IMG/VR virus record: IMGVR_UViG_3300021185_001079
Coordinates: 1-56,383 of that record
DNA: 56,383 bases
From: a virus
Direction: 5' to 3' (one strand)
A model generated the notes under the pieces. The model saw nothing but the letters and a program-made list of their open reading frames with translations. It did no database searches and was not told where the DNA came from. Positions 30,388 through 54,974 of the stretch are shown here, in pieces (within the stretch, counting starts at the first letter, position 1; each line of letters begins with the position of its first letter). A program made the position numbers and the translations under genes.

Positions 30388-30706
30388 CGGCGTATTAGAA
30401 TTTCACCGTATTGAATATAAAGCAGGATTTAAATGTTCAGAACATGAGCATCAATTTAAATGGAATGGATTTTTTGTAGAGTCAGGAAAGATGCTTGTAC
30501 GAGTATGGCAAGATGATCAAGATCTAGTTGATGAAACCATTCTTGAAGCCGGACAGTTTACACAAGTAAAGCCCGGAAAGATACACCAGTTTGAAGGACT
30601 CGAAGACGGCGTAGCATTTGAGTTATACTGGGCAGAATTTAATCATGATGATATAGTGAGGCGTACCAGTGGAACCGTGGTTGAAAAAAGATCCAAAAAC
30701 AAATAG
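30341..30706 (+). CDS. Cupin-domain protein
   Basis: A 121-aa single cupin: SEHEHQFKWNGFFVESGK near residue 28 (His-x-His metal motif) and AGQFTQVKPGKIHQFEGLEDG near 72 (second cupin motif with His). It starts inside the oxygenase gene with ribosome site AAGGAG, a 47-bp overlap. A metal-dependent sugar or small-molecule role fits the following Kdo genes, but this is inference. Confidence 0.7.
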   Translation: MKAGKIWGQTELVHANGVLEFHRIEYKAGFKCSEHEHQFKWNGFFVESGKMLVRVWQDDQDLVDETILEAGQFTQVKPGKIHQFEGLEDGVAFELYWAEFNHDDIVRRTSGTVVEKRSKNK

Positions 30707-30962
30707 ACTAATACCAGGACAGCCTTTGATATACGAAAGAGCAAATGGTGTAGTTTATGCAAGGTATAGAGATCCACCACACAACAATATACCTCGTTGG
30801 GTAATTGGTGGTGATCCAGGTGCTGTTGCTCGGGCCCAAGGTAGGCTATTAGATTATAGTGAATGGTTAGCACTATGTGACTTAGTAGATGATAATCCAA
30901 CTCTTAAAAAATTAATGGATCAACTTATTACAACATACTACCTTATAAAGGAAGATCAATGA
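30669..30962 (+). CDS. Small conserved protein, GTG start
   Basis: A 97-aa protein read from a GTG start overlapping the cupin gene, with GAGG eight bases upstream. It begins EPWLKKDPKTNRLIPGQPL and has a conserved-looking VVYARYRDPPHNNIPRWVIGG block. It ends by overlapping kdsA by 4 bp. The function is unknown, and coupling on both sides supports a real gene. Confidence 0.6.
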   Translation: MEPWLKKDPKTNRLIPGQPLIYERANGVVYARYRDPPHNNIPRWVIGGDPGAVARAQGRLLDYSEWLALCDLVDDNPTLKKLMDQLITTYYLIKEDQ

Positions 30963-31732
30963 GAATCATAGCAGGCCCATGTCAGCACGAAACACTTGGA
31001 CAGTCTGTTGCTATTGCAAGAGAATGCAAGCGTGTATGTGACAAACATAATATAGAATATATTTTCAAAGCAAGTTATGATAAAGCAAATCGAACAAGTG
31101 CTAATGGTATCCGAGGCATGGGAATGGATGCAACAATGAACGACTTCCGTGCAATTAAAGAAACTTTTAAAATTAAAACACTTACTGATGTACATGATTA
31201 CGTGCAAGTAAATCGAATCTCAAGAGAGTTTAACGATGCAGTTGATGTACTACAAATACCTGCATTCCTATGTAGACAGACTGATCTTATTACAGCGGCA
31301 TGTGCAACAGACAAAGTTGTAAATATTAAAAAAGGCCAGTTCTTAGCGCCTTGGGATATGCAAGGTGTGCTAAGTAAGACTACAGACGCTAAAGAAGTCT
31401 GGGTAACAGAGAGAGGAACTAGTTTTGGATATAATACCCTTGTTGTTGATTATTCAGGGATTGATTGGATGCTTAATAATCTTTGTGTTCCTATTGTGTT
31501 TGATTGTACACACTCTGCCCAAAAGCCCGGAGGGAAGGGTAGTAGTTCAGGCGGGAATCGTGATCTTGTTCCTGGGTTCGCTCGTAGCGGGTCTGCTTTC
31601 GGGATTTCAAATTTCTTCCTCGAAGTACACGAACTGCCTGATAACGCACCATCAGACGGTCCAAATATGCTTCAACTAGATAAATTTGAGGAGGTTGTAG
31701 ATGACATCGTCCGCTATTCTTATACCCGCTAG
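30959..31732 (+). CDS. kdsA: 3-deoxy-D-manno-octulosonate 8-phosphate synthase (KdsA)
   Basis: A 257-aa aldolase joining phosphoenolpyruvate and arabinose-5-phosphate to make Kdo-8-P for lipopolysaccharide. Motifs are AGPCQHE at residues 5-11, FKASYDKANRTS near 38, RGMGM near 54, TDVHD near 75, VDVLQIPAFLCRQTDL near 97, NIKKGQFLAPWDM near 123, VFDCTHSAQKPG near 181 and a C-terminal FLEVHE near 227. All catalytic regions look present, and the size is slightly below the bacterial enzyme (about 280 aa). It is followed by kdsB. Confidence 0.9.
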   Translation: MRIIAGPCQHETLGQSVAIARECKRVCDKHNIEYIFKASYDKANRTSANGIRGMGMDATMNDFRAIKETFKIKTLTDVHDYVQVNRISREFNDAVDVLQIPAFLCRQTDLITAACATDKVVNIKKGQFLAPWDMQGVLSKTTDAKEVWVTERGTSFGYNTLVVDYSGIDWMLNNLCVPIVFDCTHSAQKPGGKGSSSGGNRDLVPGFARSGSAFGISNFFLEVHELPDNAPSDGPNMLQLDKFEEVVDDIVRYSYTR

Positions 31733-32396
31733 ATATCACAGCACACGCTTTCCAGGTAAGCCTCTATGTATGCTAGATGGCAAGACTATGATACAACGTG
31801 TAGTTGAAGCATGTAAGCAAACAGATTATGACGTATACGTGCTTACTGATCACAAGTTAATTGCACAAGCAGCCCAAGCCGCAGGCGCAGAGTTTTTTAT
31901 CGATAGTGAGACATATGAAAATGGCACTGAAAGAGTAGCAGGTGCAATACGTAGCCGTAAGTTCGACGAGTATGATCAGTTTGTAAACGTACAAGGTGAC
32001 ATGCCTGATGTAACACCGGAGTGTATTGATAAATGCATGTGGCACTTAAAAAACTATCAAGTGACAACAGTATTCACAGAGATGCCAGCAGCAATGCAAA
32101 ACGATCCTAACTCAGTTAAGTTAATTAGAGCTGGAGACCAAGCACTATGGTTTGGTAGAGGTATAACAGGTTACGGAGACTGGCACTTGGGCGTGTATGG
32201 ATATAAGAAAAATCCTTTACACTTGTACCATATATTAAATGTTACAAAAGAAGAACGTGTAGAAAAATTAGAACAACTGCGCTGGCTAAAAAGTGGTTGG
32301 CAAATTGGTTGTTTGAGTGTACAATTTAAAGGTACAGAGATAAACGCACCTGAGGACATTAAGACATGGCAGACAACGCACCAAAAGATAAACTAA
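31701..32396 (+). CDS. kdsB: CMP-Kdo synthetase (KdsB)
   Basis: A 231-aa cytidylyltransferase that activates Kdo with CTP. It starts SAILIPARYHSTRFPGKPL (family IPARxxSxRxPGKPL). It also shows MIQRVVEACKQ near 31, DVYVLTDH near 45, NGTERVAGA near 75, FVNVQGDMPDVTPE near 96 and HLGVYGYKK near 161, where bacterial KdsB has HIGIYGYR. It overlaps kdsA by 32 bp with ribosome site GAGGAGG inside kdsA. Together the two genes supply activated Kdo, although the A5P isomerase and phosphatase steps are not encoded here. Confidence 0.9.
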   Translation: MTSSAILIPARYHSTRFPGKPLCMLDGKTMIQRVVEACKQTDYDVYVLTDHKLIAQAAQAAGAEFFIDSETYENGTERVAGAIRSRKFDEYDQFVNVQGDMPDVTPECIDKCMWHLKNYQVTTVFTEMPAAMQNDPNSVKLIRAGDQALWFGRGITGYGDWHLGVYGYKKNPLHLYHILNVTKEERVEKLEQLRWLKSGWQIGCLSVQFKGTEINAPEDIKTWQTTHQKIN

Positions 32397-34772: not shown

Positions 34773-34951
34773 CAGTACGAACACTCAAGGATGGATCTAC
34801 AGTTAAAGAGTTTGACAAAGCAATAACTCTTAGTGTTAGGACTAGAAGCCCTGAGAAGTGGAAACTAATTGATTTAGAAACAGGTGAAGAGTATATTGGT
34901 AATACACCAAACAACTCTCATTCGTTATCGTGGAATAAAATAAATGCCTGA
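34769..34951 (+). CDS. Small conserved protein
   Basis: A 60-aa protein (TVRTLKDGSTVKEFDKAITLSV...). It is beta-rich, overlaps def by 4 bp and the DnaE-like gene by 8 bp, so it is translated as part of the same unit. The function is unknown. Confidence 0.55.
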   Translation: MTVRTLKDGSTVKEFDKAITLSVRTRSPEKWKLIDLETGEEYIGNTPNNSHSLSWNKINA

Positions 34952-35504
34952 TATTGATATTGACTTTGCTAATAGAGATATAATACTTTCTCAAATTAAG
35001 CATAGGGTTGCAAAATTAGATACTGAAAAGAAGCACAATACTGGCGTATATGTTACTGAGTGTCCACACAACCCAGTCAATAATCTTTCTACAATTGATT
35101 ATAAAACTGCAGAAGATCGAGGGTATTTTAAACTCGATTTTTTAAATGTCAGTATCTATAAAGATATCAAAAATGAAGAACACTTAACAACATTAATGAA
35201 AGGAGAACCTCTATGGCAACTACTGGAACACGCGGACTTCGTCGATCAAGTATTTCATCTAAGCGGGCACGCCGATCTCTTGAAGCAATTGAAGCCTACT
35301 TCCATAATCCAACTCGCCGCCGCTCTGAGCATCATACGACCAGCGAAGAGACACTTGGCGAATCAAGACTGGAATACTATACTGAACGAAGTATGGATAA
35401 AACCCACAAGTGGTGAATACTATTTCAAAAAAGCACATGCTGTTAGTTATGCAGCAGCATGCGTAGTACATATGAACTTAATTTGCGAACAGATTAATGA
35501 ATGA
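34944..35504 (+). CDS. Miniature DNA polymerase III alpha (DnaE)-like protein
   Basis: A 186-aa protein that strings together pieces of bacterial DnaE. It starts MPDIDIDFANRD, matching the PDFDxDF palm motif (Asp3, Asp5). GYFKLDFLNVSIYKDI (Asp65) matches the KFDFLGL third catalytic Asp. DLLKQLKPTSIIQLAAALSIIRP matches the finger segment (KQMKP...ALYRPGP), and YFKKAHAVSYAAACVVHMN matches the NKSHAAAYA segment. In E. coli DnaE the first and third acids are about 150 residues apart; here they are 60. PHP, tau-binding and most thumb parts are absent. Activity is uncertain. Confidence 0.7.
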   Translation: MPDIDIDFANRDIILSQIKHRVAKLDTEKKHNTGVYVTECPHNPVNNLSTIDYKTAEDRGYFKLDFLNVSIYKDIKNEEHLTTLMKGEPLWQLLEHADFVDQVFHLSGHADLLKQLKPTSIIQLAAALSIIRPAKRHLANQDWNTILNEVWIKPTSGEYYFKKAHAVSYAAACVVHMNLICEQINE

Positions 35505-36123: not shown

Positions 36124-36487
36124 TAGATTTTCGAACTAACTGTATAGCTTTACGTTTAATACGTTTTACTGACAAGTTATTTAAATTTACAGTTGGGCCT
36201 ACGGTAACATTTACGTCTTTTGAGTTCATTGTTATAATAATATATCTAAATTTTTCTAAATCTTTTTTAAGAAATATATTAATCGGAATCATTCTATTTG
36301 ATTCCCACCACCAAGTTTCGCCCAATTGTAAGAACTCTTGTTCTTGATGTTCGTCCTTAATATCAGTGTAGACATACATAGACGTCACCCACTGATCCTG
36401 GTTAATGATAATACCTACGTACTCATTACCGCCGTATTGTACGACACTTAAAAATGGAAAGTTCTCTTGGATATTCTTTAACAACAT
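36116..36487 (-). CDS. Conserved protein of unknown function, minus strand
   Basis: A 123-aa protein with YVGIIINQDQWVTSMYVYTDI and a basic C-terminus (SVKRIKRKAIQLVRKSTK). It is the only minus-strand gene between the glycan island and 40999. It is convergent with the sulfotransferase and divergent from the structural protein at 36508. Confidence 0.6.
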   Translation of the reverse strand: MLLKNIQENFPFLSVVQYGGNEYVGIIINQDQWVTSMYVYTDIKDEHQEQEFLQLGETWWWESNRMIPINIFLKKDLEKFRYIIITMNSKDVNVTVGPTVNLNNLSVKRIKRKAIQLVRKSTK

Positions 36488-36495
36488 TATTCTTT

Positions 36496-36503
36496 ACTAA
36501 ATA
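36496..36503 (+). promoter_or_regulatory. Late-type promoter, leaderless geometry
   Basis: ACTAAATA, then CAGT, then the ATG at 36508: a four-base gap identical in form to 679, 7004 and 9293. Confidence 0.55.
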
Positions 36504-36507
36504 CAGT

Positions 36508-37284
36508 ATGCAACTTGTACCAAGATATTTATTAAAAAATCAAATAACTGTGACGGTTAATGAAGCAGGATTTACGACGGAGTATTCACCAGTGTATAGT
36601 AGACAAATAAAACTTTATAGAGGTATTAAAAATACCTTACAATTTAAAATGCTAAACGCAGATCAAAAGCCTGTAGATATTTCAAACTATACGCCGAAGT
36701 TCCTAGCATACGACGAAAACAAAACACTTATAGTAGATAGACTAGCAACAGTTACCGATGACGGAAGCACAACGACACGTGGTACATGTATTGTTGAAGT
36801 GTCTGATAGCGATTTACTTAACGTACAAGATCAGTTTATAACATATTCTATATTCTTATATGACGAAGTAAATGGTAGTACAATTACATATTCTGATACA
36901 GGATTTGGTAATACAGGTATTGCAGAAATAAGTTCAGAAGCATTTCCAGGCGTACAACCGACAACTGAACTAGTTTCGTTCTTTGAAAATAATGAAGAAT
37001 GGGTATCGAACAGTATTTCAGCTCAACCTGGAATAAATGGCAATTCAGCATTACATACAGCCGTATTTTATACAGACGGTTTTATTGGTGACATTATAGT
37101 TGAAGCTACATTAGATAACACCCTTAGTGCAGCTACAGGCTGGAGTGCTCTTCAAACAATAACTTGTACAGGTGCTGAAACAGAACCAATGCCTATAAAC
37201 TATTACGGTGTGTTTAATCATACCCGATTTAGAGTTACTGCTAACCCTGCAGAAAAGATTACAAAGGTATTAGTCAGAAACTAA
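36508..37284 (+). CDS. Virion structural protein, probably baseplate or fibre-associated
   Basis: A 258-aa beta-rich protein beginning MQLVPRYLLKNQITVTVNEAG, with YRGIKNTLQFKMLNADQKPVDIS near residue 43 and a C-terminal region (GVFNHTRFRVTANPAEKITKVLV) of the kind seen in phage baseplate upper proteins. Its own late promoter supports a virion role. An in-frame ATG at 36454 would overlap the divergent gene and the promoter, so it is rejected. Confidence 0.6.
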   Translation: MQLVPRYLLKNQITVTVNEAGFTTEYSPVYSRQIKLYRGIKNTLQFKMLNADQKPVDISNYTPKFLAYDENKTLIVDRLATVTDDGSTTTRGTCIVEVSDSDLLNVQDQFITYSIFLYDEVNGSTITYSDTGFGNTGIAEISSEAFPGVQPTTELVSFFENNEEWVSNSISAQPGINGNSALHTAVFYTDGFIGDIIVEATLDNTLSAATGWSALQTITCTGAETEPMPINYYGVFNHTRFRVTANPAEKITKVLVRN

Positions 37285-37312
37285 TTGACAAATACTATTG
37301 CGATGTTATAAT
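37285..37312 (+). promoter_or_regulatory. Strong early promoter of primase, leaderless geometry
   Basis: TTGACA, 16 bp and a perfect TATAAT, then five bases to the ATG at 37318. Confidence 0.75.
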
Positions 37313-37317
37313 ATAGT

Positions 37318-38298
37318 ATGAGCATCGTATCCGATACATTGACTATATTCTTACCAGGCAAGCGTAAAACAACGCCTAGCGGATGGACTTCGTTTAATGC
37401 ACCATGCTGTGTGCATAACGGCGAGTCGGCAGATAAAAAAGCTCGTGGCGGATTAATAACAGAAGTTGACACAGTTAGCTATCATTGTTTCAATTGCGGA
37501 TATAAAGCAAGCTGGCAACCGGGAAGATCCTTTTCACATAAGATGAAAAAGCTATTTCAATGGCTTGGTGCACCGGATGATGTCATTACTAAAGTTGCAC
37601 TTGATGTAATGAGAGAGAACGAAGGTGTAGAAGTTCGAGAGCGCAAAATAGAAATACCTACTTTTCAAACAGTTCCACTTCCGCCAGATGCTGTAAAGAT
37701 TGCAGACATTACTGAATTTAATAAGTTTAGCATTGCTGTATTAGAATATATAGCTGCACGTAACTTAAACTTAGATGACACAACGTATTACTGGAGTTCT
37801 AGTCTTGCATATAGAGATAGAATTATTATTCCGTTTTATTTTGAAAAACGGATTGTAGGTTGGACAGCTAGAACTATAACAGTAGATAAAAAACCTAAGT
37901 ATATAAACGAGCAGCAGCCTGGGTTTGTATACGGCCTAGACAATCAAACGTTTGATAAGCAGTTTGCAATACTGTGTGAAGGACCAATCGATGCTATTCA
38001 TGTAGGCGGCTGCGCTATCGGCGGTAGTGAAGTTAATGATACCCAAGCATTACTGCTGAACAGGTTAACAAAAGATATCGTAGTTGTTCCTGATAGAGAT
38101 AGTGCAGGTAAGAAGTTAGTTGAAAGAGCAATCGATTTAGGATGGAGTGTTAGTTTACCAGATTGGACTTCGGACATAAATGATATCGGAGATTGCGTTA
38201 ATAAATACGGCAGACTATATGCACTGTATAGTATAGCATCAGCGGCAGAGAGCTCGCCACTAAAGATAAGACTGAAGGCAAAGAAATGGTTCGTTTAA
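37318..38298 (+). CDS. gp61: DNA primase (T4 gp61-like)
   Basis: A 326-aa primase. The N-terminal zinc finger has APCCVHNGE near residue 28 and YHCFNCGYK near 56. The TOPRIM core has LCEGPIDAIHVGG near 222 and VVVPDRDSAGKK near 261, holding the catalytic Glu and Asp residues. Length and order match T4 gp61. The helicase gp41, with which it forms the primosome, lies 640 bp downstream. Confidence 0.9.
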   Translation: MSIVSDTLTIFLPGKRKTTPSGWTSFNAPCCVHNGESADKKARGGLITEVDTVSYHCFNCGYKASWQPGRSFSHKMKKLFQWLGAPDDVITKVALDVMRENEGVEVRERKIEIPTFQTVPLPPDAVKIADITEFNKFSIAVLEYIAARNLNLDDTTYYWSSSLAYRDRIIIPFYFEKRIVGWTARTITVDKKPKYINEQQPGFVYGLDNQTFDKQFAILCEGPIDAIHVGGCAIGGSEVNDTQALLLNRLTKDIVVVPDRDSAGKKLVERAIDLGWSVSLPDWTSDINDIGDCVNKYGRLYALYSIASAAESSPLKIRLKAKKWFV

Positions 38299-38938: not shown

Positions 38939-40363
38939 ATGAGTATGACTAGACAAAACACAGACTACGGGTACGAGATACAGAAAGTGTATCTTGAAAT
39001 GATGATGACAGATGCAGAGTCGTTTGTTAGAGCCCAAGCTGTGTTCGAGCCAACTAGCTTTGATCGTCGCTTGCAAGATACAGCAACGTTTTTAAATGAT
39101 TATGTTATAGAGCATAATGCACTGCCTACGTTTGACATGATTAATGCAGCAACTGACGGACAGTTGAAACACCCGGGCGACTTACAAGAGAATCACTATG
39201 ACTGGCTACTAAAAGAGTTTGAAACGTTTAGTAAGCATAAAGCATTAGAGAAAGCTATCTTAGACAGTGCCGACTTACTTGAGAAGGGTGAGTACGGAGC
39301 GTGTGAAGAGCTAGTCAAGAAAGCTGTACAGATAGGACTACAGAAAGACTTAGGTACAGACTACTGGGCTGACCCTCGAGGTAGACTAGAAGCGATTAAA
39401 GATAAGAACGGACAGATTAGCACAGGCTGGCCGGCACTAGATAAGAAATTGTTTGGTGGGTTCAACAGAGGTGAGCTTAATATCTTCGCAGGTGGTTCAG
39501 GGTCTGGTAAGAGTTTGTTCTTGGCTAATATGGGGGTGAACTGGGCACTAGCAGGTCTTAACGTAGTTTACTTAACGTTTGAGCTTTCAGAGAACTTGGT
39601 TAGTATGAGGGTCGACTCAATGACCACAGACATCCCCAGCAGAGATGTATTCAAGAGCATTGATGACGTAGAGATGAAGGTTAAGATGATCGGCAAGAAG
39701 TCGGGTGCCCTGCAAGTTAAGTATATGCCCACAGGCAAAAACGCCAATGACATCCGCTCATATTTAAAAGAGTATGAAATAAAAACAGGCAAAAAGGTAG
39801 ACGTATTGCTTGTAGACTACTTAGATTTGATGCACCCTATTGCAGCAAAGATAAGTGCAGAGAACTTGTTTGTAAAAGACAAGTACGTATCAGAAGAGCT
39901 TCGTAACCTAGCAATGGAACTACAGTGTATCTTTGTTACAGCGTCACAGCTAAACAGAAGCTCAGTAGAAGAGATTGAGTTTGATCACTCGCATATCTCG
40001 GGTGGTATTTCAAAGATCAATACAGCAGATAACTTGATTGGTATCTTTACAAGTAGAGCAATGCGTGAGCGCGGACGTTATCAGATTCAGTTGATGAAGA
40101 CACGTTCTAGTTCGGGTGTAGGACAAAAGATTGATCTAGAGTTTGACGTAGACAGTTTACGCATACGTGATTGTGAGCAAGACGACGATGACGGGTACAG
40201 CCCAAATACTTCAACTACTAGCAGCAACATACTTAGCAGTCTCAAGAGATCTCCAACTAATCCAGTAGACTCTCCAGACGAAGGTACAAGCATAGGCAAA
40301 GTAAACGCACAAACAGATTCAACTAAACTGCGTAGCTTCATTAACAATCTTGGTGGAGATTAA
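38939..40363 (+). CDS. gp41: Replicative DNA helicase (T4 gp41, DnaB-like)
   Basis: A 474-aa hexameric helicase. Walker A GGSGSGKS is at residues 185-192, the Walker B strand VDVLLVDYLDLM is near 280, and a DnaB-type TASQLNRSSVEE is near 331, followed by a C-terminal disordered Ser/Thr-rich tail. With a leaderless transcript the protein may start at the second ATG (MTRQNTDYG) two codons later. It is followed directly by a GNAT-like gene. Confidence 0.93.
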   Translation: MSMTRQNTDYGYEIQKVYLEMMMTDAESFVRAQAVFEPTSFDRRLQDTATFLNDYVIEHNALPTFDMINAATDGQLKHPGDLQENHYDWLLKEFETFSKHKALEKAILDSADLLEKGEYGACEELVKKAVQIGLQKDLGTDYWADPRGRLEAIKDKNGQISTGWPALDKKLFGGFNRGELNIFAGGSGSGKSLFLANMGVNWALAGLNVVYLTFELSENLVSMRVDSMTTDIPSRDVFKSIDDVEMKVKMIGKKSGALQVKYMPTGKNANDIRSYLKEYEIKTGKKVDVLLVDYLDLMHPIAAKISAENLFVKDKYVSEELRNLAMELQCIFVTASQLNRSSVEEIEFDHSHISGGISKINTADNLIGIFTSRAMRERGRYQIQLMKTRSSSGVGQKIDLEFDVDSLRIRDCEQDDDDGYSPNTSTTSSNILSSLKRSPTNPVDSPDEGTSIGKVNAQTDSTKLRSFINNLGGD

Positions 40364-40795
40364 ATGTTACAGAAACTAGATATTAAAACTATTGAAGCAA
40401 TCATAAAAGATGATCCTGTGCGTCCGCATATTCCAGCTGAGTGGAGAAACGGCAGTGGATCAGAAGTATACGGCTTATGGGATGAAGACTTCACCCGCAT
40501 CTGTGCAGCAGTATGTGTACACTATACAGATGTAGTTCCTACAAGCGAACTAGAGATGCTACACGCAACAGGTGATAGCATTGCTGTATTCTACACAGTA
40601 TGGAGTTATGCCAAAGGCAGTGGCAGAGAGATTATCTTTAGTGTTGCGAATCATATCAAGCAAACTCATCCCAACGTAAGTAGATACGTAACACTAAGTC
40701 CTCTTACTGATATGGCAGAACAATTCCATCTACGAAACGGCGCGACACTGGTCGGACGTTACGACACAGCGCAGAACTTCGAGTACGAGATCTAG
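40364..40795 (+). CDS. GNAT-like acetyltransferase fold protein
   Basis: A 143-aa protein starting at the base after gp41. AVFYTVWSYAKGSGREIIFSVANHI near residue 73 has the GNAT shape (central strand, then a Gly-rich acetyl-CoA loop and helix), and YVTLSPLTDMAEQFHLRNGATLVG near 108 fits the C-terminal part. The substrate is unknown. It is the last plus-strand gene before the transcription switch. Confidence 0.55.
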   Translation: MLQKLDIKTIEAIIKDDPVRPHIPAEWRNGSGSEVYGLWDEDFTRICAAVCVHYTDVVPTSELEMLHATGDSIAVFYTVWSYAKGSGREIIFSVANHIKQTHPNVSRYVTLSPLTDMAEQFHLRNGATLVGRYDTAQNFEYEI

Positions 40796-40998
40796 GGCGC
40801 ATATGCCAACAAGCACGAAGTGTTTGCTGCAAAAATTTTTTTCACTTAAACTACACACTTAACTAGCATATACTCATATTCCAGTACACTGCTACAAGCC
40901 GTACGCATAATAAAAAAACGAGTTCAACCTTAACGACAGACACATTCCGCCTAAGCGTTTTATACTGTTTTTAAAGGTTTTTAAAAAGATGGTTCTTT
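40796..40998. other. Convergent junction between plus- and minus-strand blocks
   Basis: About 200 bp with no gene. It contains A/T runs and, on the minus strand after the gene at 40999, a weak AAAAAGA/TCTTTTT hairpin that could end transcription. No convincing promoter was seen. Confidence 0.5.
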
Positions 40999-41202
40999 TT
41001 AGAGTAATTCAAAGTCTACAGAGTGCAGTTTCATAGTAGCTAGTGTGCGATGCGCAACACAGTCAAACTCTAGTACACTCGACGAACTTTGATATGACTC
41101 TATTCCATGCTGTGTGTACAGTTCTAAACATAATGCGGCTGTGCGTGTGTCAGCTGTGTCGTAAGCGTAGGAGCTAGGATAGAGTATTCTGAGTTTAAAC
41201 AT
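40999..41202 (-). CDS. Small protein with its own late promoter
   Basis: A 67-aa protein (MFKLRILYPSSYAYDTADTR...), Ser/Tyr-rich with three cysteines. A minus-strand late octamer lies five bases before the ATG. Unlike the early genes that follow it has no TTGACA cassette, so it is probably expressed late. The function is unknown. Confidence 0.55.
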   Translation of the reverse strand: MFKLRILYPSSYAYDTADTRTAALCLELYTQHGIESYQSSSSVLEFDCVAHRTLATMKLHSVDFELL

Positions 41203-41207
41203 ATGTG

Positions 41208-41215
41208 TATTTATT
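41208..41215 (-). promoter_or_regulatory. Late-type promoter, minus strand
   Basis: On the minus strand AATAAATA, then CACAT, then the ATG at 41202. Confidence 0.5.
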
Positions 41216-41343
41216 GCACACAGCGTTTCAGCTAGTCTGCTGAAGTGTAGTTATTCGCTATGCGGGCTACTGAGTTGATTGTTCGGACTGTGAGTAAGCA
41301 CTGTGCGCAACATATTTAGCGCACGGTTAAGAGGTCCAGTTTA

Positions 41344-41362
41344 AATTGAGCGTAGCTCAATT
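41344..41362 (-). terminator. Hairpin overlapping a stop codon
   Basis: Perfect 8-bp stem AATTGAGC/GCTCAATT with a 3-nt loop at the end of the gene at 41357, followed on the minus strand by a short T-rich stretch. Confidence 0.5.
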
Positions 41363-41557
41363 AGCTGCAAGCAGCTTTTCTATTATCGTACGTAGTTGTT
41401 TGCGTTGCGTGTGCGTTAGACTAGAGTTAGCATCCAACTCTTCTCTTATACGCTGTATGAGACCGTCCACGTCATCTGGGTGTACTGTGAGCACTGTAGT
41501 AAGATGACGTATAAGATAGTCTATAAACATTAGTGTAGCCCCAAGCTCCACATCCAT
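41357..41557 (-). CDS. Small helical protein
   Basis: A 66-aa protein (MDVELGATLMFIDYLIRHL..., ending RKQLRTIIEKLLAAN), fully helical and amphipathic. It overlaps the small membrane protein at 41530 by 28 bp and is probably translated with it from the late promoter at 41654. The function is unknown. Confidence 0.5.
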   Translation of the reverse strand: MDVELGATLMFIDYLIRHLTTVLTVHPDDVDGLIQRIREELDANSSLTHTQRKQLRTIIEKLLAAN

Positions 41558-41649
41558 ACAGGAATAATTATGAAATGAAAAGCTACACATAGAAACAGCA
41601 TGAGTTTCACTGTGAGCATATTACCTCGACCATCGTTATTATTGTTCAT
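41530..41649 (-). CDS. 39-aa membrane protein
   Basis: A short polar start with four Asn, then one transmembrane helix (MLTVKLMLFLCVAFHFIII). It has a late octamer exactly four bases before the ATG. A small late membrane peptide next to a helical protein could belong to lysis timing, but nothing in the sequence proves it. Confidence 0.5.
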   Translation of the reverse strand: MNNNNDGRGNMLTVKLMLFLCVAFHFIIIPVWMWSLGLH

Positions 41650-41653
41650 ATCG

Positions 41654-41661
41654 TATTTACC
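41654..41661 (-). promoter_or_regulatory. Late-type promoter, minus strand, leaderless geometry
   Basis: On the minus strand GGTAAATA, then CGAT, then the ATG at 41649. Confidence 0.55.
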
Positions 41662-41846
41662 CGAAATGGGTCCTAGCGTAAAAAAAAATTGCTGCGCGGA
41701 TTTTTTAGGTGAAGTACTTACAGAAGTGAGGTGGTGATTTTGCATCACTCCATTTTTTAAGGCTTTGTTGTTTGTTTTTGTAAAGTAAAAAATTTAATTA
41801 TATAACCCCGACCCCCCGAGATTTATTTTTTTATTTTTTTTATAAC

Positions 41847-41887
41847 ATAAAAAAATTTGTAATGCAAGTGTTTTTTTTACTTGCATT
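41847..41887 (-). terminator. Rho-independent terminator, minus strand
   Basis: A 9-bp perfect stem (AATGCAAGT pairing with ACTTGCATT) followed on the minus strand by ACAAATTTTTTT. It separates the early array from the late genes at 41649 and beyond. A C-rich tract (41806-41817) follows. Confidence 0.75.
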
Positions 41888-41908
41888 ACTATTTTATTTG
41901 TGCTAGTG

Positions 41909-42121
41909 TTATTTTAAAAAACTTAACACTTGTGCTTCCGTGTAGCGTGTGCAGTCGTTTGCATTAGCTGTGCGCAAGCTGCGCTGTAGCTGTTGCGTGT
42001 AAGGTGCTACGCTAAACGCATCTGCGCGATAGTAGTGTTGCAGCTTTGCTACTGCTGTTGCTGATAGCTTTTGTGCGTATGTTAAATGTGTTAAGCCCGG
42101 CTCCGTTACAACGTAATACAT
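41909..42121 (-). CDS. Small early protein
   Basis: A 70-aa protein (MYYVVTEPGLTHLTYAQKLSA...) ending TEAQVLSFLK. Ribosome site AAGGAG is present. It is the most promoter-distal gene of the early array. The coding region already has few GA/GG steps on the plus strand. Unknown function. Confidence 0.5.
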   Translation of the reverse strand: MYYVVTEPGLTHLTYAQKLSATAVAKLQHYYRADAFSVAPYTQQLQRSLRTANANDCTRYTEAQVLSFLK

Positions 42122-42201: not shown

Positions 42202-42396
42202 TTAATTTTGCCACGCTAACACTTTGCCGTTTTGCACTTGCACTATGCAGCGTTGCATGTGTCCGCATACAGTGCGCACGTTTGCATAGTAATGCACAAT
42301 GTCGCCTGCTGCTGCTTTAACTTTGTTATAGTATTCAAAGCTAGTAAACGTAAGCGAGTTGTGTACAAGCGCATGTTTGTTACATAATGTTTTCAT
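42202..42396 (-). CDS. Small early protein
   Basis: A 64-aa protein from the ATG at 42396 after AAGGAGC (the longer frame upstream runs through the promoter). It contains YYNKVKAAAGDIVHYYANVR and three Cys. Unknown function. Confidence 0.5.
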   Translation of the reverse strand: MKTLCNKHALVHNSLTFTSFEYYNKVKAAAGDIVHYYANVRTVCGHMQRCIVQVQNGKVLAWQN

Positions 42397-42423
42397 TTGC
42401 AGCTCCTTGTTTGCTATACATAC

Positions 42424-42452
42424 TGTGTAACAGCTTTTGCATAACAGTGCAA
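42424..42452 (-). promoter_or_regulatory. Early promoter cassette with TTGCAC
   Basis: TTGCAC, 17 bp, TACACA. A separate hairpin (CAGTGCA/TGCACTG) lies just upstream and can end the previous transcript. Confidence 0.55.
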
Positions 42453-42482
42453 GTAAAAAATGCACTGTTATGCTTTTTATTT

Positions 42483-42740
42483 TTAATTAATATACGTTAG
42501 TTGTGCGTGTATATTTTCACGTACTACAGTGTCTAACGTGCTGCTTAGTGCAGCGTTTGCTAAACTTGCTGCATTAGTATGCTGTGCGTAGTTTGCATAT
42601 ACATACTGCAATGCTTGCACATTGTCTAATATGCTGTAGTCATTTTTTTCCGCTACGCTGTCATGTGCAGCAGCTTTTATTTTTGTAGCTAAATTTTCAA
42701 TAGTTGCAATAACTGTGTTTGTGTATTTTGTGTTTTGCAT
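42483..42740 (-). CDS. Early protein inside the GA/GG-free island
   Basis: An 85-aa helical protein rich in Ala, Asn and Thr, without Gly, Pro or Trp. The leader before the ATG (CAGCAAAGTAGTAAAAC) has no Shine-Dalgarno sequence and is shared with the genes at 43354 and 47630. The plus strand shows no GA or GG through the whole gene, while TC/CC still occur. Unknown function. Confidence 0.55.
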   Translation of the reverse strand: MQNTKYTNTVIATIENLATKIKAAAHDSVAEKNDYSILDNVQALQYVYANYAQHTNAASLANAALSSTLDTVVRENIHAQLTYIN

Positions 42741-42776
42741 GTTTTACTACTTTGCTGTTTTGTTGCTTACAAATAT

Positions 42777-42805
42777 GTTGTAGCATGTTAAGCGTAGCAT
42801 AGCAA
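42777..42805 (-). promoter_or_regulatory. Early promoter cassette with TTGCTA (GA-free)
   Basis: TTGCTA, 17 bp, TACAAC. A 10-bp inverted repeat (GCATAGCAAG/CTTGCTATGC) overlaps the -35 box. Confidence 0.55.
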
Positions 42806-42835
42806 GCACTAACTGCACTTGCTATGCTTTTTATT

Positions 42836-43354
42836 TTAGTTTAAGTTAAGCGTTTGCTTGTTAGCTGTTATGCTGTTAATATTGTGCAGCGCTATTGTGC
42901 GTACTACAACGCTATGCGTTACGTTGTTAGTAGCGTTGTACGTTGTGCTTGTGTTAGTTAGCAGCTTTTGTGCTGCACTAGCAGTTAAGTATTGCGCTAC
43001 TTGCTGCTTTGTTGCTGCTACGTTGTTAATTGTATACGTGCTGCTTGCTGCGTTAAAAATTGCATACAAATACAAATTGTTGTTTGTTTTGTGCTGCACA
43101 ATGCTATAGCAGCTTGTGTGCTTAAAGTAATTGCTGCTAGTAACAAAATTTTGTGTGTTTGCATTTTTGTTTACTGCGTTTGCAAATACGCTAGTAGCAG
43201 CTTTAATGTTTGCAAATAGCTGCACGTTTGCGCTAGTAGTTTTTTTAATTACTACAGCTTTGTGCGCTGCTGCTGTTTTAACTGTTGTAGTGTAGTTTAC
43301 GTTTGCAAAAGTTGTGCTTGCGTTTGCTAGTAATTTTTTTATTTGCTGTTGCAT
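42836..43354 (-). CDS. 172-aa protein lacking Asp, Glu, Gly, Pro and Trp
   Basis: The reading frame is intact over 172 codons although neither strand contains GA, GG, TC or CC. As a result it has no acidic residue and no Gly, Pro or Trp. Ser comes only from AGY and Phe only from TTT. It is rich in Asn, Thr, Ala and Lys, and so basic, with a helical basic start (MQQQIKKLLANASTTFANV) and a beta-like middle (YSIVQHKTNNNLYLYAIFNA). There is no ribosome site. The function is unknown; a non-folding or nucleic-acid-binding protein is conceivable. Confidence 0.6.
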   Translation of the reverse strand: MQQQIKKLLANASTTFANVNYTTTVKTAAAHKAVVIKKTTSANVQLFANIKAATSVFANAVNKNANTQNFVTSSNYFKHTSCYSIVQHKTNNNLYLYAIFNAASSTYTINNVAATKQQVAQYLTASAAQKLLTNTSTTYNATNNVTHSVVVRTIALHNINSITANKQTLNLN

Positions 43355-43388
43355 GTTTTACACTTTGCTGTTTGTTGCTTACAAGTAG

Positions 43389-43417
43389 TGTATAGCAGCT
43401 TTTAAAACAGTTGTAAA
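43389..43417 (-). promoter_or_regulatory. Early promoter cassette with TTTACA (GA-free)
   Basis: TTTACA, 17 bp, TATACA. The spacer holds the palindromic core CTGTTTTAAAAGC. Confidence 0.6.
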
Positions 43418-43603
43418 GCATAAAATTAATTTATTTTAGCTATTGCATTACATTTTTATTTGTGCTACAGTTAAGTAGCGGCCTCTGAGGTTTGGTCCGA
43501 CTGAGGTAAAAGTAGGAGACAACTGTTGCCAGCTGCCTCCTTGTGGGGTTGTGTGTGCCGCTTGCGCCTGTGTGCTACACCTCTGCGCCTTAGCTGCGGC
43601 TTG
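43418..43603. other. Intergenic segment, G+C-rich in part
   Basis: From 43478 on the composition jumps to G+C-rich, with CCTCTGAGG and a second CTGAGG, unlike both neighbours. No reading frame or promoter was found. It may hold an RNA element like that at 50688-50813. Confidence 0.4.
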
Positions 43604-45334: not shown

Positions 45335-45496
45335 TTACGATTTGGTTACAGTCACTCTGTGATGAGCACGACCTGAGTAGGCGCTTGCACTTACCCCTGC
45401 AATGCGACAGCCTTTTTCATGTGCTGAGTGTTCGCCCAGTGCCATTACTTCGCCGATCAACTTGCTGTCATAATATACTTTGTATCTCTCAAACAT
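45335..45496 (-). CDS. 53-aa early protein
   Basis: MFERYKVYYDSKLIGEVMALG... is a small beta-rich protein ending in HHRVTVTKS. The start at 45496 follows GAGGAGC. Unknown function. Confidence 0.55.
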   Translation of the reverse strand: MFERYKVYYDSKLIGEVMALGEHSAHEKGCRIAGVSASAYSGRAHHRVTVTKS

Positions 45497-45522
45497 AATT
45501 GCTCCTCGTTTGCTATACAAGT

Positions 45523-45551
45523 AAACTAGCGCATTGCTGCGCTAGTGTCAA
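45523..45551 (-). promoter_or_regulatory. Early promoter cassette
   Basis: TTGACA, 17 bp, TAGTTT. Standard palindrome with loop AGCAAT. Confidence 0.75.
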
Positions 45552-45559
45552 CACCTAAA

Positions 45560-45883
45560 TTAGTTGTCTAGCGCATCATTTAGCGCTTCAATCACAGCCG
45601 CTACCGCCTTGTCGTTGTATCCGCCTATGTGCCAATCGTAGCTGGCTACAGGTGTGTATCCTGTTTTCCAATTGTATATGCTTGCTACAATGTACTCATC
45701 TGCCTGTGTGTCGTACAGCTCTATGTTCCACTCTGTGTTTACTTTCTCATTCCTGTCATCGATGTTGTATGTTGGAGCACCAAATGCAATTACTAAGTCT
45801 GCATAGGTTGTGCGTACTGTGCCTAACAAGCTAGTGCCGTTTACTGCTACGTCTGCGCCTGTATCTGCAATTGCCATAACCAT
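45560..45883 (-). CDS. 107-aa early protein
   Basis: Starts MVMAIADTGADVAVNGTSLLG at the ATG after AAGGAA. It is a mixed alpha/beta acidic protein with WNIELYDTQADEYIVASIYNW in the middle. Unknown function. Confidence 0.55.
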   Translation of the reverse strand: MVMAIADTGADVAVNGTSLLGTVRTTYADLVIAFGAPTYNIDDRNEKVNTEWNIELYDTQADEYIVASIYNWKTGYTPVASYDWHIGGYNDKAVAAVIEALNDALDN

Positions 45884-45916
45884 TTGTAAGTTCCTTGTTT
45901 GTGTTCCTATACAAAC

Positions 45917-45945
45917 ATCATAGCGTCTTTGCACTGGGCTGTCAA
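45917..45945 (-). promoter_or_regulatory. Early promoter without full palindrome
   Basis: TTGACA, 17 bp, TATGAT. The spacer ends in GC like the others but its arms no longer pair well. Confidence 0.65.
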
Positions 45946-45964
45946 CACCTAAATGAAAGTTTTT

Positions 45965-46165: not shown

Positions 46166-46242
46166 TGGTGCTCCCACTAGGACTCGAACCTAGGACCAAA
46201 GCGTTATGAGCGCTCTGCTCTAACCAACTGAGCTACAGGAGC
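46166..46242 (-). tRNA. tRNA with CAU anticodon (Met or Ile2)
   Basis: A complete cloverleaf with encoded CCA. The acceptor stem starts GCTCCTG, the D-arm is GCTC/GAGC, the anticodon loop CTCATAA, and the T-loop TTCGAGT. Whether it is elongator Met or a lysidine-type Ile tRNA cannot be decided by eye. Confidence 0.9.
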
Positions 46243-46252
46243 ATTATTATAT

Positions 46253-46328
46253 TGGTGAGCCGTACAGGATTTGAACCTGTGACCCACTGATTAAAAGTCA
46301 GTTGCTCTACCAACTGAGCTAACGGCCC
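46253..46328 (-). tRNA. tRNA-Lys (UUU)
   Basis: A 76-nt cloverleaf with anticodon loop CTTTTAA, T-loop TTCAAAT and encoded CCA. It reads AAA/AAG, common in this AT-rich genome. Confidence 0.93.
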
Positions 46329-46338
46329 ACTTTATATT

Positions 46339-46422
46339 TGGTACCCGCGGCCGGACTCGAACCGGCACGCCTTGCGGCCACAGATTTTAAGTCTGTTATG
46401 TCTACCATTCCATCACGCGGGC
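46339..46422 (-). tRNA. tRNA-Leu (UAA)
   Basis: An 84-nt class II tRNA with a long variable arm, anticodon loop CTTAAAA, T-loop TTCGAGT and encoded CCA. It reads TTA, a frequent leucine codon here. Confidence 0.93.
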
Positions 46423-46426
46423 GTAT

Positions 46427-46503
46427 TGGCGGTCCCTATAGGATTCGAACCTATGACCTACTGCTTAGAAGGCAGTTGCTCTATCCAGCTGAGCTAAGGA
46501 ACC
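46427..46503 (-). tRNA. tRNA-Arg (UCU)
   Basis: A 77-nt cloverleaf, acceptor GGTTCCT/AGGGACC with wobble pairs, anticodon loop CTTCTAA, discriminator G and encoded CCA. It reads AGA, which is frequent in the plus-strand genes. Confidence 0.92.
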
Positions 46504-46827: not shown

Positions 46828-46838
46828 CAGCGGGGCCT
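46828..46838. repeat. CAGCGGGGCCT repeat, copy 1
   Basis: Lies between the promoter at 46860 and the ribosome site of the gene at 46805, so it would be in that gene's leader. Confidence 0.75.
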
Positions 46839-46859
46839 GTCGCCTCTGCGTTGTGTGTT

Positions 46860-46888
46860 ACACTAGCACATTGCTGCGCTAGTGTAAA
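46860..46888 (-). promoter_or_regulatory. Early promoter cassette with TTTACA
   Basis: TTTACA, 17 bp, TAGTGT. The palindrome has loop AGCAAT and one mismatched arm base (GCGC against GTGC). Confidence 0.65.
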
Positions 46889-46901
46889 GTGTTTTTATTA
46901 G

Positions 46902-47150
46902 CTATGCTAATACGTCATATGCTGCTTCTATAATATTATGCGCACAGCTGTCTGTAGCAAAGCCCTCCTCCGCTGCAAAATCAACGCTGCTGCTGCACAT
47001 AATAACATCTGTTTGCCAATTAATGTTATGTTGCTTAAACACTGCTGCTAATTGTGCTGCTGTGTTTACTGCTGCAACTTGTACGTTGTTAACAGTTACA
47101 ACAATTACTGCGTCTTGTGCGTTTAAAAATACGTTGTTTGTTTTTTGCAT
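46902..47150 (-). CDS. Early protein in GA/GG-free island 2
   Basis: An 82-aa protein (MQKTNNVFLNAQDAVIVVTVNN...) with a beta-strand start and acidic end. The plus strand contains no GA or GG across the gene (no TC or CC on the coding strand), but GA is used on the coding strand, so Asp and Glu are present. Ribosome site GAGGGAA remains. Confidence 0.58.
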   Translation of the reverse strand: MQKTNNVFLNAQDAVIVVTVNNVQVAAVNTAAQLAAVFKQHNINWQTDVIMCSSSVDFAAEEGFATDSCAHNIIEAAYDVLA

Positions 47151-47184
47151 AATACTTCCCTCTATGCTTGTTAACTTATAAAGT

Positions 47185-47213
47185 ACACTAGCACATTGCT
47201 GCGCTAGTGTAAA
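47185..47213 (-). promoter_or_regulatory. Early promoter cassette with TTTACA
   Basis: TTTACA, 17 bp, TAGTGT, palindrome with loop AGCAAT. A second possible -10 (TATAAG) lies downstream. Confidence 0.65.
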
Positions 47214-47222
47214 GTGTTTTTT

Positions 47223-47630
47223 TTAATATGCTGCAAAAATATTTGCTGCTAAGTTTGCAAATGTGCTGTCGTTAGCAGCAGCGTCATTACACGCATCCTC
47301 AAATTGCTCCGCTATGCACTCCCTGTACTCTGTGTCGTAGCATAGCAGTGCTTGTGCTGCTTGTGCTAGTGTAAACGTAAACACAGCACTATCGTCGTCT
47401 GCTGTTGCATAAAGCATTTGCAAATTGTCTAGCACTTCCATTGCGTCCTGTAAACGCACAAAGTACTGCTCGTCGTCGTCTGTTACGCAGCTTGCGTTTA
47501 ATGCTGTTAAGTTTTGCAATACGTCTGCAATAAACTGTACTACAAACGCTTTGTGTGCTTGTGTAAGTGTAAAGTTTACAACTGTATTGTTGTTTAAATT
47601 TGTAAAAACTTGTGTGTTTACTGTATACAT
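47223..47630 (-). CDS. Early protein without Gly, Pro or Trp
   Basis: A 135-aa acidic protein (MYTVNTQVFTNLNNNTVVNF..., with VTDDDEQYFVRLQDAMEVLDNL in the middle). The coding strand lacks TC and CC entirely. The leader before the ATG is the SD-less type (CAACAAACAGCAAAG) shared with 42740 and 43354. Ala/Asp-rich and helical; unknown function. Confidence 0.6.
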   Translation of the reverse strand: MYTVNTQVFTNLNNNTVVNFTLTQAHKAFVVQFIADVLQNLTALNASCVTDDDEQYFVRLQDAMEVLDNLQMLYATADDDSAVFTFTLAQAAQALLCYDTEYRECIAEQFEDACNDAAANDSTFANLAANIFAAY

Positions 47631-47667
47631 GTTTTTTACTACTTTGCTGTTTGTTGCTTACAAATTT

Positions 47668-47696
47668 GTTGTAGCAGTTTTAAAACAGCAACGCAA
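47668..47696 (-). promoter_or_regulatory. Early promoter cassette with TTGCGT (GA-free)
   Basis: TTGCGT, 17 bp, TACAAC. The spacer is the near-palindrome TGCTGTTTTAAAACTGC. Confidence 0.6.
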
Positions 47697-47739
47697 GCAC
47701 AAATTGCAATAAAATGTGCTTGCTATACTTTTTTTACTA

Positions 47740-47800
47740 AACTATACTTTAGTATAGTTCGCCCCTACTTATGCGCACTTGACAATACTAAAGTAGGGGC
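47740..47800 (-). terminator. Two tandem inverted repeats
   Basis: GCCCCTACTT/AAGTAGGGGC (10-bp arms, 47761-47800) followed on the minus strand by AACTATACT/AGTATAGTT (9-bp arms, 47740-47759). Together they form a strong structured block after the gene at 47809. Confidence 0.6.
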
Positions 47801-50687: not shown

Positions 50688-50813
50688 GCAGCTGAGGGCG
50701 GGCTGCGAGGGCTATATGGAGCAGAGCGTGAGGGCGGCGCTTACTGCTCCGTCTACACTAGATGAGGGGCTCTAGCGTAGTATGCTGCAATGCGGAAGGC
50801 TGAGGGCTTAGCC
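50688..50813. ncRNA. Possible structured RNA: four hairpins with a shared TGAGGG loop
   Basis: Hairpin 1 is GCAGC/GCTGC with loop TGAGGGCGG (50688-50706). Hairpin 2 is GGAGCAGAGCG paired to CGCT-TA-CTGCTCC with the same nine-base loop (50718-50750). Hairpin 3 is CTAGA/TCTAG with loop TGAGGGGC (50758-50775). Hairpin 4 is GGCT/AGCC with GAGGGCTT (50798-50813). The segment is G+C-rich in an AT-rich genome and lies between two minus-strand genes. Strand is unknown: the plus RNA would show UGAGGG loops, the minus RNA CCCUCA loops, which could pair with the GAGG ribosome sites. Confidence 0.5.
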
Positions 50814-51809
50814 ACGTCGCATAACAGTATTTTCAGCCATTGACTCCCAGCTATCTGGAAATGCTTTGGCTAAGTCTGCAATCTTAAGGACAGTTCGCAA
50901 ACTCAGTTCTCTTAGCTTTGACTTATTAATGTCAACAAAGTCGACAATGTCTTGAATCAGTTCATCGGAGAACTTATAATCATTTAGCATTCCGTCATTG
51001 GTGATCTGCTTGATTCTGAGCATCTTCTCTCTGTCTGAGTCAATAGTCAAGTCCATGTAGTGACAGCGTGACTCTAACGCACTCAAGTGCTCGCGGATCT
51101 TACCTTTGGCTTTGTCAAACTTCAGATTGGTTACAAAGATTGCACTTGCTTCAAAGTTAAAGCTATCTGGTACACCTTCGTTGCGCAGCTTGTATGAGTC
51201 TGTATTCCAGTGAATGGTGCGCTTCTTCTTAGAGTCTAATGCTGCCTTTAGGATGTTCAAGCTTAGTTCGTCGCTAAAGATTGAGTCGCAGTCATCAAAC
51301 ACAACTACCTTGCCCTTGTCTGCCATCTTGTATAGCTTACAGTACAAGCCAATGGGCGACATTGCACCTTTGACAACTTCGTAACGTTGCTCACCACCTA
51401 GTGCTTCTATAGTTGCGTAGCGGTCTAGTACTGTCTCAATACCGTGTGACTTACCTACGCCCGGGGGACCCGACACAATCATTGCTCGCACATCGCCTTT
51501 GCGAACAGCCTTTGTCATGTCTGACAGCATGTCAAATCTGTCTCTAAGGCGTTCAATGATCTCACTGTCAGTTTCTTCACGCTGTGTAGTCTTAGTATCT
51601 AAGTCACACAACTCGTAATCCCCCGGGCCGTCGCACTTGATCTTAATGTTGCGATCCGGAAAGCCGTTAACGGCAGAGCCGTCTACTGTTACAAAGCCGC
51701 CTTGTGAGCCAACTTTGAATGTTTCCACTAGTGGAAATACAATACCACTCATGTCTGTGTCGTTACCGCGAATCTTGTATACGCCGTTTATAATTCTTAC
51801 ATTTGCCAT
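50808..51809 (-). CDS. AAA+ ATPase
   Basis: A 333-aa protein with Walker A SGPPGVGKS near residue 112, Walker B VVVFDDCDS near 168, a sensor-like FVTNLKFD near 226 and an Arg-rich C-terminal helical lid (SKLRELSLRTVLKIADLAKAF). The N-terminal 90 residues look like a separate beta domain. It is the only large enzyme in the early array, conserved in the marine T4-like phages I know of, with unknown target. A role in moving or remodelling a host or phage complex is likely for the family. Confidence 0.75.
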   Translation of the reverse strand: MANVRIINGVYKIRGNDTDMSGIVFPLVETFKVGSQGGFVTVDGSAVNGFPDRNIKIKCDGPGDYELCDLDTKTTQREETDSEIIERLRDRFDMLSDMTKAVRKGDVRAMIVSGPPGVGKSHGIETVLDRYATIEALGGEQRYEVVKGAMSPIGLYCKLYKMADKGKVVVFDDCDSIFSDELSLNILKAALDSKKKRTIHWNTDSYKLRNEGVPDSFNFEASAIFVTNLKFDKAKGKIREHLSALESRCHYMDLTIDSDREKMLRIKQITNDGMLNDYKFSDELIQDIVDFVDINKSKLRELSLRTVLKIADLAKAFPDSWESMAENTVMRRG

Positions 51810-54448: not shown

Positions 54449-54610
54449 TTAGTTCGCACTAGCAGTTTTATACAATTTTGATAGTTGTGCTTGTGTGACA
54501 GTGTACAAGCACGGCAGTGTAACATTGTGTGCATAACGCTGCTGCTGTGTTGCAAGGTCTACAATTAAAAGTGTATTGTAGTTAATTACAGTGTGTCCAA
54601 ATTTTGGCAT
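54449..54610 (-). CDS. 53-aa early protein
   Basis: MPKFGHTVINYNTLLIVDLA..., then a Gln-rich middle and a polar C-terminus. The plus strand has few GA/GG steps (about five), so it is partly like the islands. Unknown function. Confidence 0.55.
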   Translation of the reverse strand: MPKFGHTVINYNTLLIVDLATQQQRYAHNVTLPCLYTVTQAQLSKLYKTASAN

Positions 54611-54634
54611 CGTGTGCTCCTCAGCTTGTAGCGT

Positions 54635-54663
54635 ACACTAGCGCATTGCTGCGCTAGTGTCAA
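54635..54663 (-). promoter_or_regulatory. Early promoter cassette, standard palindrome
   Basis: TTGACA, 17 bp, TAGTGT, loop AGCAAT. Confidence 0.75.
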
Positions 54664-54673
54664 CCACTTTTTT

Positions 54674-54862
54674 TTATTCGTCTGCTGCTGCTTCTTCTAG
54701 CATTGTGTTAACATCGTAGCCGTACACTAGCATCTCTTGCAACAATTGCTTGCACGTCTCATAGCTGTCCCACTGTTGTATTTCAAACTCGTCCTCGCAG
54801 TCATACGCATTGCTTAGTGCTATTTGCATGTTGTAAAACATTTTTGTGTGTGCTGCTTGCAT
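54674..54862 (-). CDS. 62-aa acidic early protein
   Basis: MQAAHTKMFYNMQIALSNAYDCEDEF..., helical, ending EEAAADE. The coding strand lacks TC and CC. A ribosome site (CGGAGC) is kept. Unknown function. Confidence 0.55.
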   Translation of the reverse strand: MQAAHTKMFYNMQIALSNAYDCEDEFEIQQWDSYETCKQLLQEMLVYGYDVNTMLEEAAADE

Positions 54863-54897
54863 AGTAGTGCTCCGTTTTTGTTTGTTGCTACAGTTAC

Positions 54898-54926
54898 GTT
54901 GTAGCAGCTTTTAAGCAGCAGCGCAA
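54898..54926 (-). promoter_or_regulatory. Early promoter cassette with TTGCGC (GA-free)
   Basis: TTGCGC, 17 bp, TACAAC. The spacer is a near-palindrome around CTTAAAAG. Confidence 0.58.
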
Positions 54927-54974
54927 GCAAAAAATGCATAAAAATAAAATTAATTTTTTTTAATTTAGCTGTTG

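Follow-up and report, generated by a model that had tools for sequence, protein, structure and literature searches.

Gene islands without TC or CC on the coding strand in a jumbo phage lineage and their association with 7-deazaguanine genes

The sequence analysed, called the window throughout, is the whole 56,383-base virus record IMGVR_UViG_3300021185_001079. It covers part of the genome of a jumbo myophage, from a lineage of giant aquatic phages; among named phages, Pseudomonas phage PA5oct has the nearest replicative helicase (56%). An original prediction described within it 782 bp free of GA, GG, TC and CC on either strand, spanning a whole gene that stays open. What could strip four dinucleotides from such a length of DNA, and on which strand and which molecule does it act?

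The 782-bp segment and the coding-strand rule

In what follows YC stands for TC or CC and GR for GA or GG; YC on one strand is GR on the opposite strand. By direct count the segment is exactly as described, and the protein of its open gene has no Asp, Glu, Gly, Pro or Trp. The features concerned are as follows.

42699..43480, both strands: 782-bp segment without GA, GG, TC or CC (direct count, shuffles)
42836..43354, minus strand: open reading frame of the 172-aa gene
43389..43417, minus strand: sigma70-like promoter of the 172-aa gene by consensus match, TTTACA-17-TATACA, free of GR and YC

Base composition predicts 135 GR/YC in this segment, where none is observed (Poisson P ~1e-58). No other run of this kind in the window is as long, the second being 234 bp (47525-47759), and across 200 shuffles in 100-bp blocks the longest run was 72 bp. 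When the 172-aa protein was recoded by the codon preferences of nearby genes in the module, the mean was 44 GR/YC and the minimum 28 in 1000 recodings. Chance or ordinary codon bias is thus inadequate, as had been claimed.

No DNA match to the 172-aa gene was found in the phage collection. Ordinary dinucleotide use in homologues had been named as evidence that would count against the pattern, and here the two orthologues diverge. That of L239/L241, 66% identical, has zero YC and zero GR and sits within a 785-bp run free of both, whereas that of L199, 63% identical, is partly purged, with 8 YC and 5 GR. Among the three genes dN/dS is 0.12-0.20 (0.15-0.20 for the window gene against the others); the 172-aa gene is therefore a maintained gene, and the island genes are under purifying selection. 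The YC sites of L199 differ from the purged orthologues by C-to-A in 7 cases, C-to-T in 3 and C-to-G in 2. The pattern recurs in other contigs, both in orthologues and in gene families. The 66% orthologue, the dN/dS values and the differences other than C-to-T therefore exclude an assembly artefact and deaminase mutation.

The description by GA, GG, TC and CC is incomplete. The stricter rule is that YC is banned from the coding strand, so that on the template strand no G precedes a purine. The rule holds in all three codon phases, in this phage and in many relatives, over clusters of small genes of up to 2077 bp. The 782-bp segment and the 785-bp run of L239/L241 are extremes of this wider rule, with both dinucleotide classes missing. 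Islands and genes of the window are listed below, with YC counted on the coding strand.

42357..43480, minus (coding) strand: island 1, 1123 bp without TC or CC, GR-free on the plus strand
46835..47781, minus (coding) strand: island 2, 946 bp without TC or CC (strand-wise count)
54607..54974, minus (coding) strand: island 3, 367 bp without TC or CC (strand-wise count)
42202..42396, minus strand: near-strict gene of 64 aa, YC 1 versus 18 expected (per-gene count)
42483..42740, minus strand: strict gene of 85 aa, YC 0 of 21 expected, in a family with members in L007, L008, L053 and L059
46902..47150, minus strand: strict gene of 82 aa, YC 0 versus 19 expected (per-gene count)
47223..47630, minus strand: strict gene of 135 aa, YC 0 versus 37 expected (per-gene count)
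54674..54862, minus strand: strict gene of 62 aa, YC 0 versus 13 expected (per-gene count)
50808..51809, minus strand: AAA ATPase (phrog_1250) of the same module, a lineage marker with ordinary dinucleotide use

Homologues of the 82-aa gene, 68-72% identical, are likewise strict or near-strict. Related contigs carry YC-free coding-strand runs of 911 bp (L053), 1258 bp (L019), 1358 bp (L054), 1495 bp (L058) and 2077 bp (L203), and in L019 and L058 the YC-free strand swaps when neighbouring genes change direction. Searches of the island proteins gave no match in Pfam and a single marginal match in PHROGs.

Codon statistics were taken over 29 strict or near-strict genes (3062 codons). C is the third base in 3 of 470 codons with a pyrimidine in second place versus 593 of 1031 with a purine, i.e. 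it is favoured wherever it is allowed. Fourfold codons end in a pyrimidine in 0 of 186 cases before C versus 63 of 154 before T. Serine is encoded by TCN once in 146, AGY codons being used instead, and proline makes up 0.1% of codons. GR on the coding strand is avoided far less than YC: it is down about threefold where silent, is retained for Asp, Glu and Gly, and is close to normal in many homologous islands (e.g. 50 of 59). The A6 gene family, recognised by its ending FTEQGMQDDGxAS, is bimodal in YC content with few intermediates. In its purged state (43 loci) Pro is absent and YC is zero where 15-30 are expected; in its unpurged state (about 25 loci) YC is near expectation and there are 2-5 Pro.

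A repeated 11-mer, AGGCCCCGCTG, lies on the minus strand between module genes at 46828, 49699, 55748, 56188 and 56331. Copies resembling it are located at the ends of YC-free runs in L007, L019 and L058.

Promoters and the limits of the purge

Strict genes are preceded by sigma70-like promoters, whose positions are consensus matches rather than mapped transcript ends. In the spacer between -35 and -10, 62 strict genes have 2 YC versus 79.5 expected, compared with 450 versus 513 in 324 normal genes. The 20 bases before the -35 box hold 14 YC versus 87.5 expected in strict genes and 455 versus 451 in normal genes. For the 21 genes that come first in their islands, with no purged gene upstream, the spacer has 2 YC versus 31.5 expected, and further upstream the count is 446 versus 611. 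The purge thus spans from about 20 bp upstream of -35 through the stop codon, and YC is back within tens of bases after the last one. The rule changes strand when the genes do and includes the promoter spacer, which is untranscribed; it therefore acts on DNA and not on mRNA.

These data bear on what had been offered as causes. Selection at the dinucleotide level stands, since the rule is followed at synonymous sites, across codon boundaries and in promoter spacers, and dN/dS is low; the agents put forward for it (deaminase attack, a nuclease, PAM-like recognition) are unsupported. A coding constraint is at odds with a promoter that also follows the rule, and codon or tRNA bias is ruled out because codon boundaries, leaders and promoters follow it.

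The inverted repeat ACACTAGCGCAGCAATGCGCTAGTGT and variants of it lie between -35 and -10 of module promoters (46855-46890, 47185-47215 and 54625-54660), possibly as an operator or a hairpin.

7-Deazaguanine genes in the lineage

Neither the strand asymmetry nor a link to a guanine-modification pathway was part of the original prediction. FolE and QueE are encoded in relatives of the window, with QueD in some records, and relatives with core proteins 74-91% identical to the window's carry folE/queE or a transglycosylase. In the window's own 56-kb fragment, covered by a TGT family search and inspection only, no pathway gene was seen. The gene of most interest is found in a relative.

G007 212974-214533: 519-aa transglycosylase-like protein near FolE/QueE, with motifs DSGGFQ and FDCxSP

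This DpdA2-like protein retains both TGT motifs. Across 12 diverse members the catalytic Asp D106, with most of DSGGFQ, and the nucleophile Asp D299 are invariant, and both align with E. coli Tgt (the latter with its FDC). By hhalign the profile match to Tgt is weak (probability 30, E 5e-4), and AlphaFold2 models are of low confidence (pLDDT 40 and 34). No match was obtained with this protein in Pfam, PHROGs or NCBIfam, with the TGT Pfam model against the window and its relatives, or with CAjan DpdA as query. Motifs, genomic context and the weak profile match thus suggest kinship to TGT. The protein occurs in at least 598 IMG/VR stretches, and homologues are encoded by PA5oct (as gp168) and its relatives, by Sinorhizobium phage Phosso and by Vibrio phage 2.275.O. 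In the last it is part of a preQ0 cluster that also encodes FolE, a queuosine biosynthesis protein, a transporter of the YhhQ type and a 7-cyano-7-deazaguanine reductase; in G007 too the protein is genomically linked to precursor genes for preQ0. A published survey credits PA5oct with a system for deazaguanine synthesis and incorporation (PMC7824862).

Pathway and islands are associated across the A6-family records together with G013. Among strict records of at least 180 kb, FolE and QueE are present in 8 of 8 and the DpdA2-like transglycosylase in 6 of 8; of the two exceptions, the G037 record stops at folE and that of G013 breaks off shortly before the syntenic position in G007. FolE, QueE and the transglycosylase are each found in 0 of 6 records with unpurged homologues (109-222 kb). 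With seven strict lineages the Fisher P of 6e-4 is indicative, as the records are incomplete and share ancestry. Intermediate cases exist. G007 (357 kb) carries the pathway but no island. In G048 and G054 the pathway coexists with half-purged homologues, the transglycosylase frame of G054 being interrupted by an in-frame TAG. G043 lacks the pathway over its 266 kb, and YC has partly returned to its island. A search for strict families in contigs retrieved via the transglycosylase, mostly fragments, gave no match.

Genome-wide, the synonymous YC odds ratio is 0.28-0.63 in relatives and DpdA carriers and 0.69-1.03 in five control phages taken as lacking DpdA. The lowest control is T4, whose DNA is itself cytosine-modified. 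Comparison of gene content between island-bearing records and G007 gave no obvious modification gene beyond the deazaguanine set. A search for QueC found a single QueC-like protein, a PP-loop protein (Pfam QueC E 1.9e-6) that adjoins a carbamoyltransferase-like protein at G015 40282-41909; the pair is possibly an extra step of base modification.

Stretches free of both GR and YC also occur in PA5oct, where 17 runs of at least 60 bp are found versus 2.2 expected in shuffles.

L021 (PA5oct) 30558-30774: GR/YC-free stretch
L021 28215-28355: GR/YC-free stretch
L020 27594-27698: GR/YC-free stretch

The longest PA5oct run, 216 bp, lies upstream of a tRNA cluster and contains two identical promoter-like repeats. 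Another, of 104 bp, has 48% GC, and several fall in intergenic promoter-like sequence.

A candidate mechanism and its rivals

It is probable, in our estimate, that the islands represent transcription units from which the phage's own guanine-modification context has been removed, leaving them readable by host RNA polymerase on modified DNA. The lineage would make a 7-deazaguanine precursor via FolE, QueE and sometimes QueD. The DpdA2-like DNA-guanine transglycosylase would probably insert it at a G before a purine, and virion DNA would then carry the modified base. The small genes, with sigma70-like promoters of their own, are probably read by host RNA polymerase from modified injected DNA and may be immediate-early. 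Loss of every GR from their template strand, and of nearly every GR from the promoter, would spare promoter opening and elongation from hindrance by modified guanines, which may slow the polymerase. GR on the coding strand would hinder less and be tolerated where Asp, Glu and Gly are needed; in the 172-aa gene it would have been removed too. The strict genes would be the ones that the phage requires earliest and most. This mechanism agrees with the strand asymmetry, with the purge of the promoter and its end past the stop codon, and with the pathway link.

Published work bears on the proposal from both sides. Bulky major-groove changes reportedly stop bacterial RNA polymerase at promoters, and with T7 polymerase it is modification of the template strand that matters; small 7-deazapurines are reportedly tolerated by bacterial RNA polymerase, which counts against the explanation (PMC11550810). 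Other points against it are that the majority of module genes are presumably transcribed unpurged, that avoidance of all GG is broader than CAjan's GGC, and that the pathway occurs without an island in G007 and with half a purge in G048 and G054.

The known DpdA/7-deazaguanine systems (9g, CAjan, nt-1 DpdA2) are similar in pairing FolE and QueE with a TGT-like protein that has the two catalytic Asp motifs. CAjan DpdA places 7-deazaguanine at GA and GGC, within the context avoided in the islands (PMC8306585; PMC10002423). They differ in that the transglycosylase here is beyond recognition by Pfam, NCBIfam and PHROGs, and the literature found holds no modification-free recoded gene islands; a literature search for phages that avoid their own modification motif returned nothing. 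Restriction-site avoidance in phage genomes likewise removes a short word by selection, whereas in the islands it is a dinucleotide that is excluded, absolutely but in certain transcription units only, and on one strand set by gene direction.

An unlikely alternative is that another coding-strand mark, e.g. a modified C after a pyrimidine, is being avoided, with the deazaguanine genes linked by descent only. Template-strand GR and coding-strand YC are indistinguishable by sequence, and the same pattern is predicted. The target of Mom is S-A-S, which is still common in the islands, and no cytosine-modifying enzyme was identified, in a search that was not systematic. The known DpdA contexts, GA and GGC, match GR. 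PA5oct does also encode five Mom-like enzymes (PMC7824862), which favours such a mark. CmoX-type cytosine modification, with motif GC, is ruled out because GC is enriched here rather than avoided.

Selection on mRNA is quite unlikely. A host or phage ribonuclease cutting UC/CC would be evaded by genes working during its activity, and YC is indeed missing from the coding strand and leaders and reappears soon past the last stop codon. This requires confinement to transcribed sequence, whereas the untranscribed -35/-10 spacer obeys the rule, the first genes of islands included, and the double avoidance that extends to GR is left unexplained. ACA-free messages that evade MazF-type mRNA interferases resemble the islands as genes recoded to dodge a sequence-specific enzyme, but the purge of the islands' untranscribed promoter points to DNA.

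Mutation, in the form of a YC-specific cytosine deaminase that exhausted every YC where heavy transcription of a gene exposes its non-template strand, is very improbable: strand asymmetry does track transcription, but differences at YC sites, a small set, are mostly not C-to-T, the island genes are under purifying selection, the purge reaches some 20 bp beyond -35, and Ser is conserved as Ser through AGY codons. Nor does the deaminase origin put forward earlier agree with the frequent use of C where it is allowed, or with a -35 box TTGACA whose counterpart in a similar promoter that is purged reads TTTACA rather than TTAACA.

The odds seem slightly in favour of self-modified viruses being able to keep whole transcription units unmodifiable by strand-specific recoding, even forgoing proline, for immediate reading by host RNA polymerase, with the purged dinucleotide giving the specificity of the uncharacterised DpdA2 family. 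If so, the transcriptional cost of a genome-wide DNA modification would be great enough to determine which amino acids proteins contain (no Pro, and in one gene also no Asp, Glu, Gly or Trp). The purge would reveal, from sequence alone, the strand and the promoter-flanking DNA that RNA polymerase needs unmodified, as well as the target of an unknown modification enzyme, and would mark candidate early host-takeover genes in uncultured phages. The idea is testable because the cultured relatives PA5oct, Paride and Callisto carry the transglycosylase homologue and PA5oct can be propagated on laboratory Pseudomonas.

Further features were seen in the window. An Rfam search found tRNAs only, four of them clustered on the minus strand inside the module at 46169-46503. 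Judged by eye, ORFs at 30959-32396 resemble KDO-8-phosphate synthase and CMP-KDO synthetase, and many glycosyltransferase-like ORFs lie at 14-26 kb beside the KDO-type ORFs. The DIDIDF-type motif of DNA polymerase III alpha is found in short ORFs (window 34944-35504; G015 36457-38106 and 45389-45961), and by eye this polymerase is apparently split into pieces across the genome.
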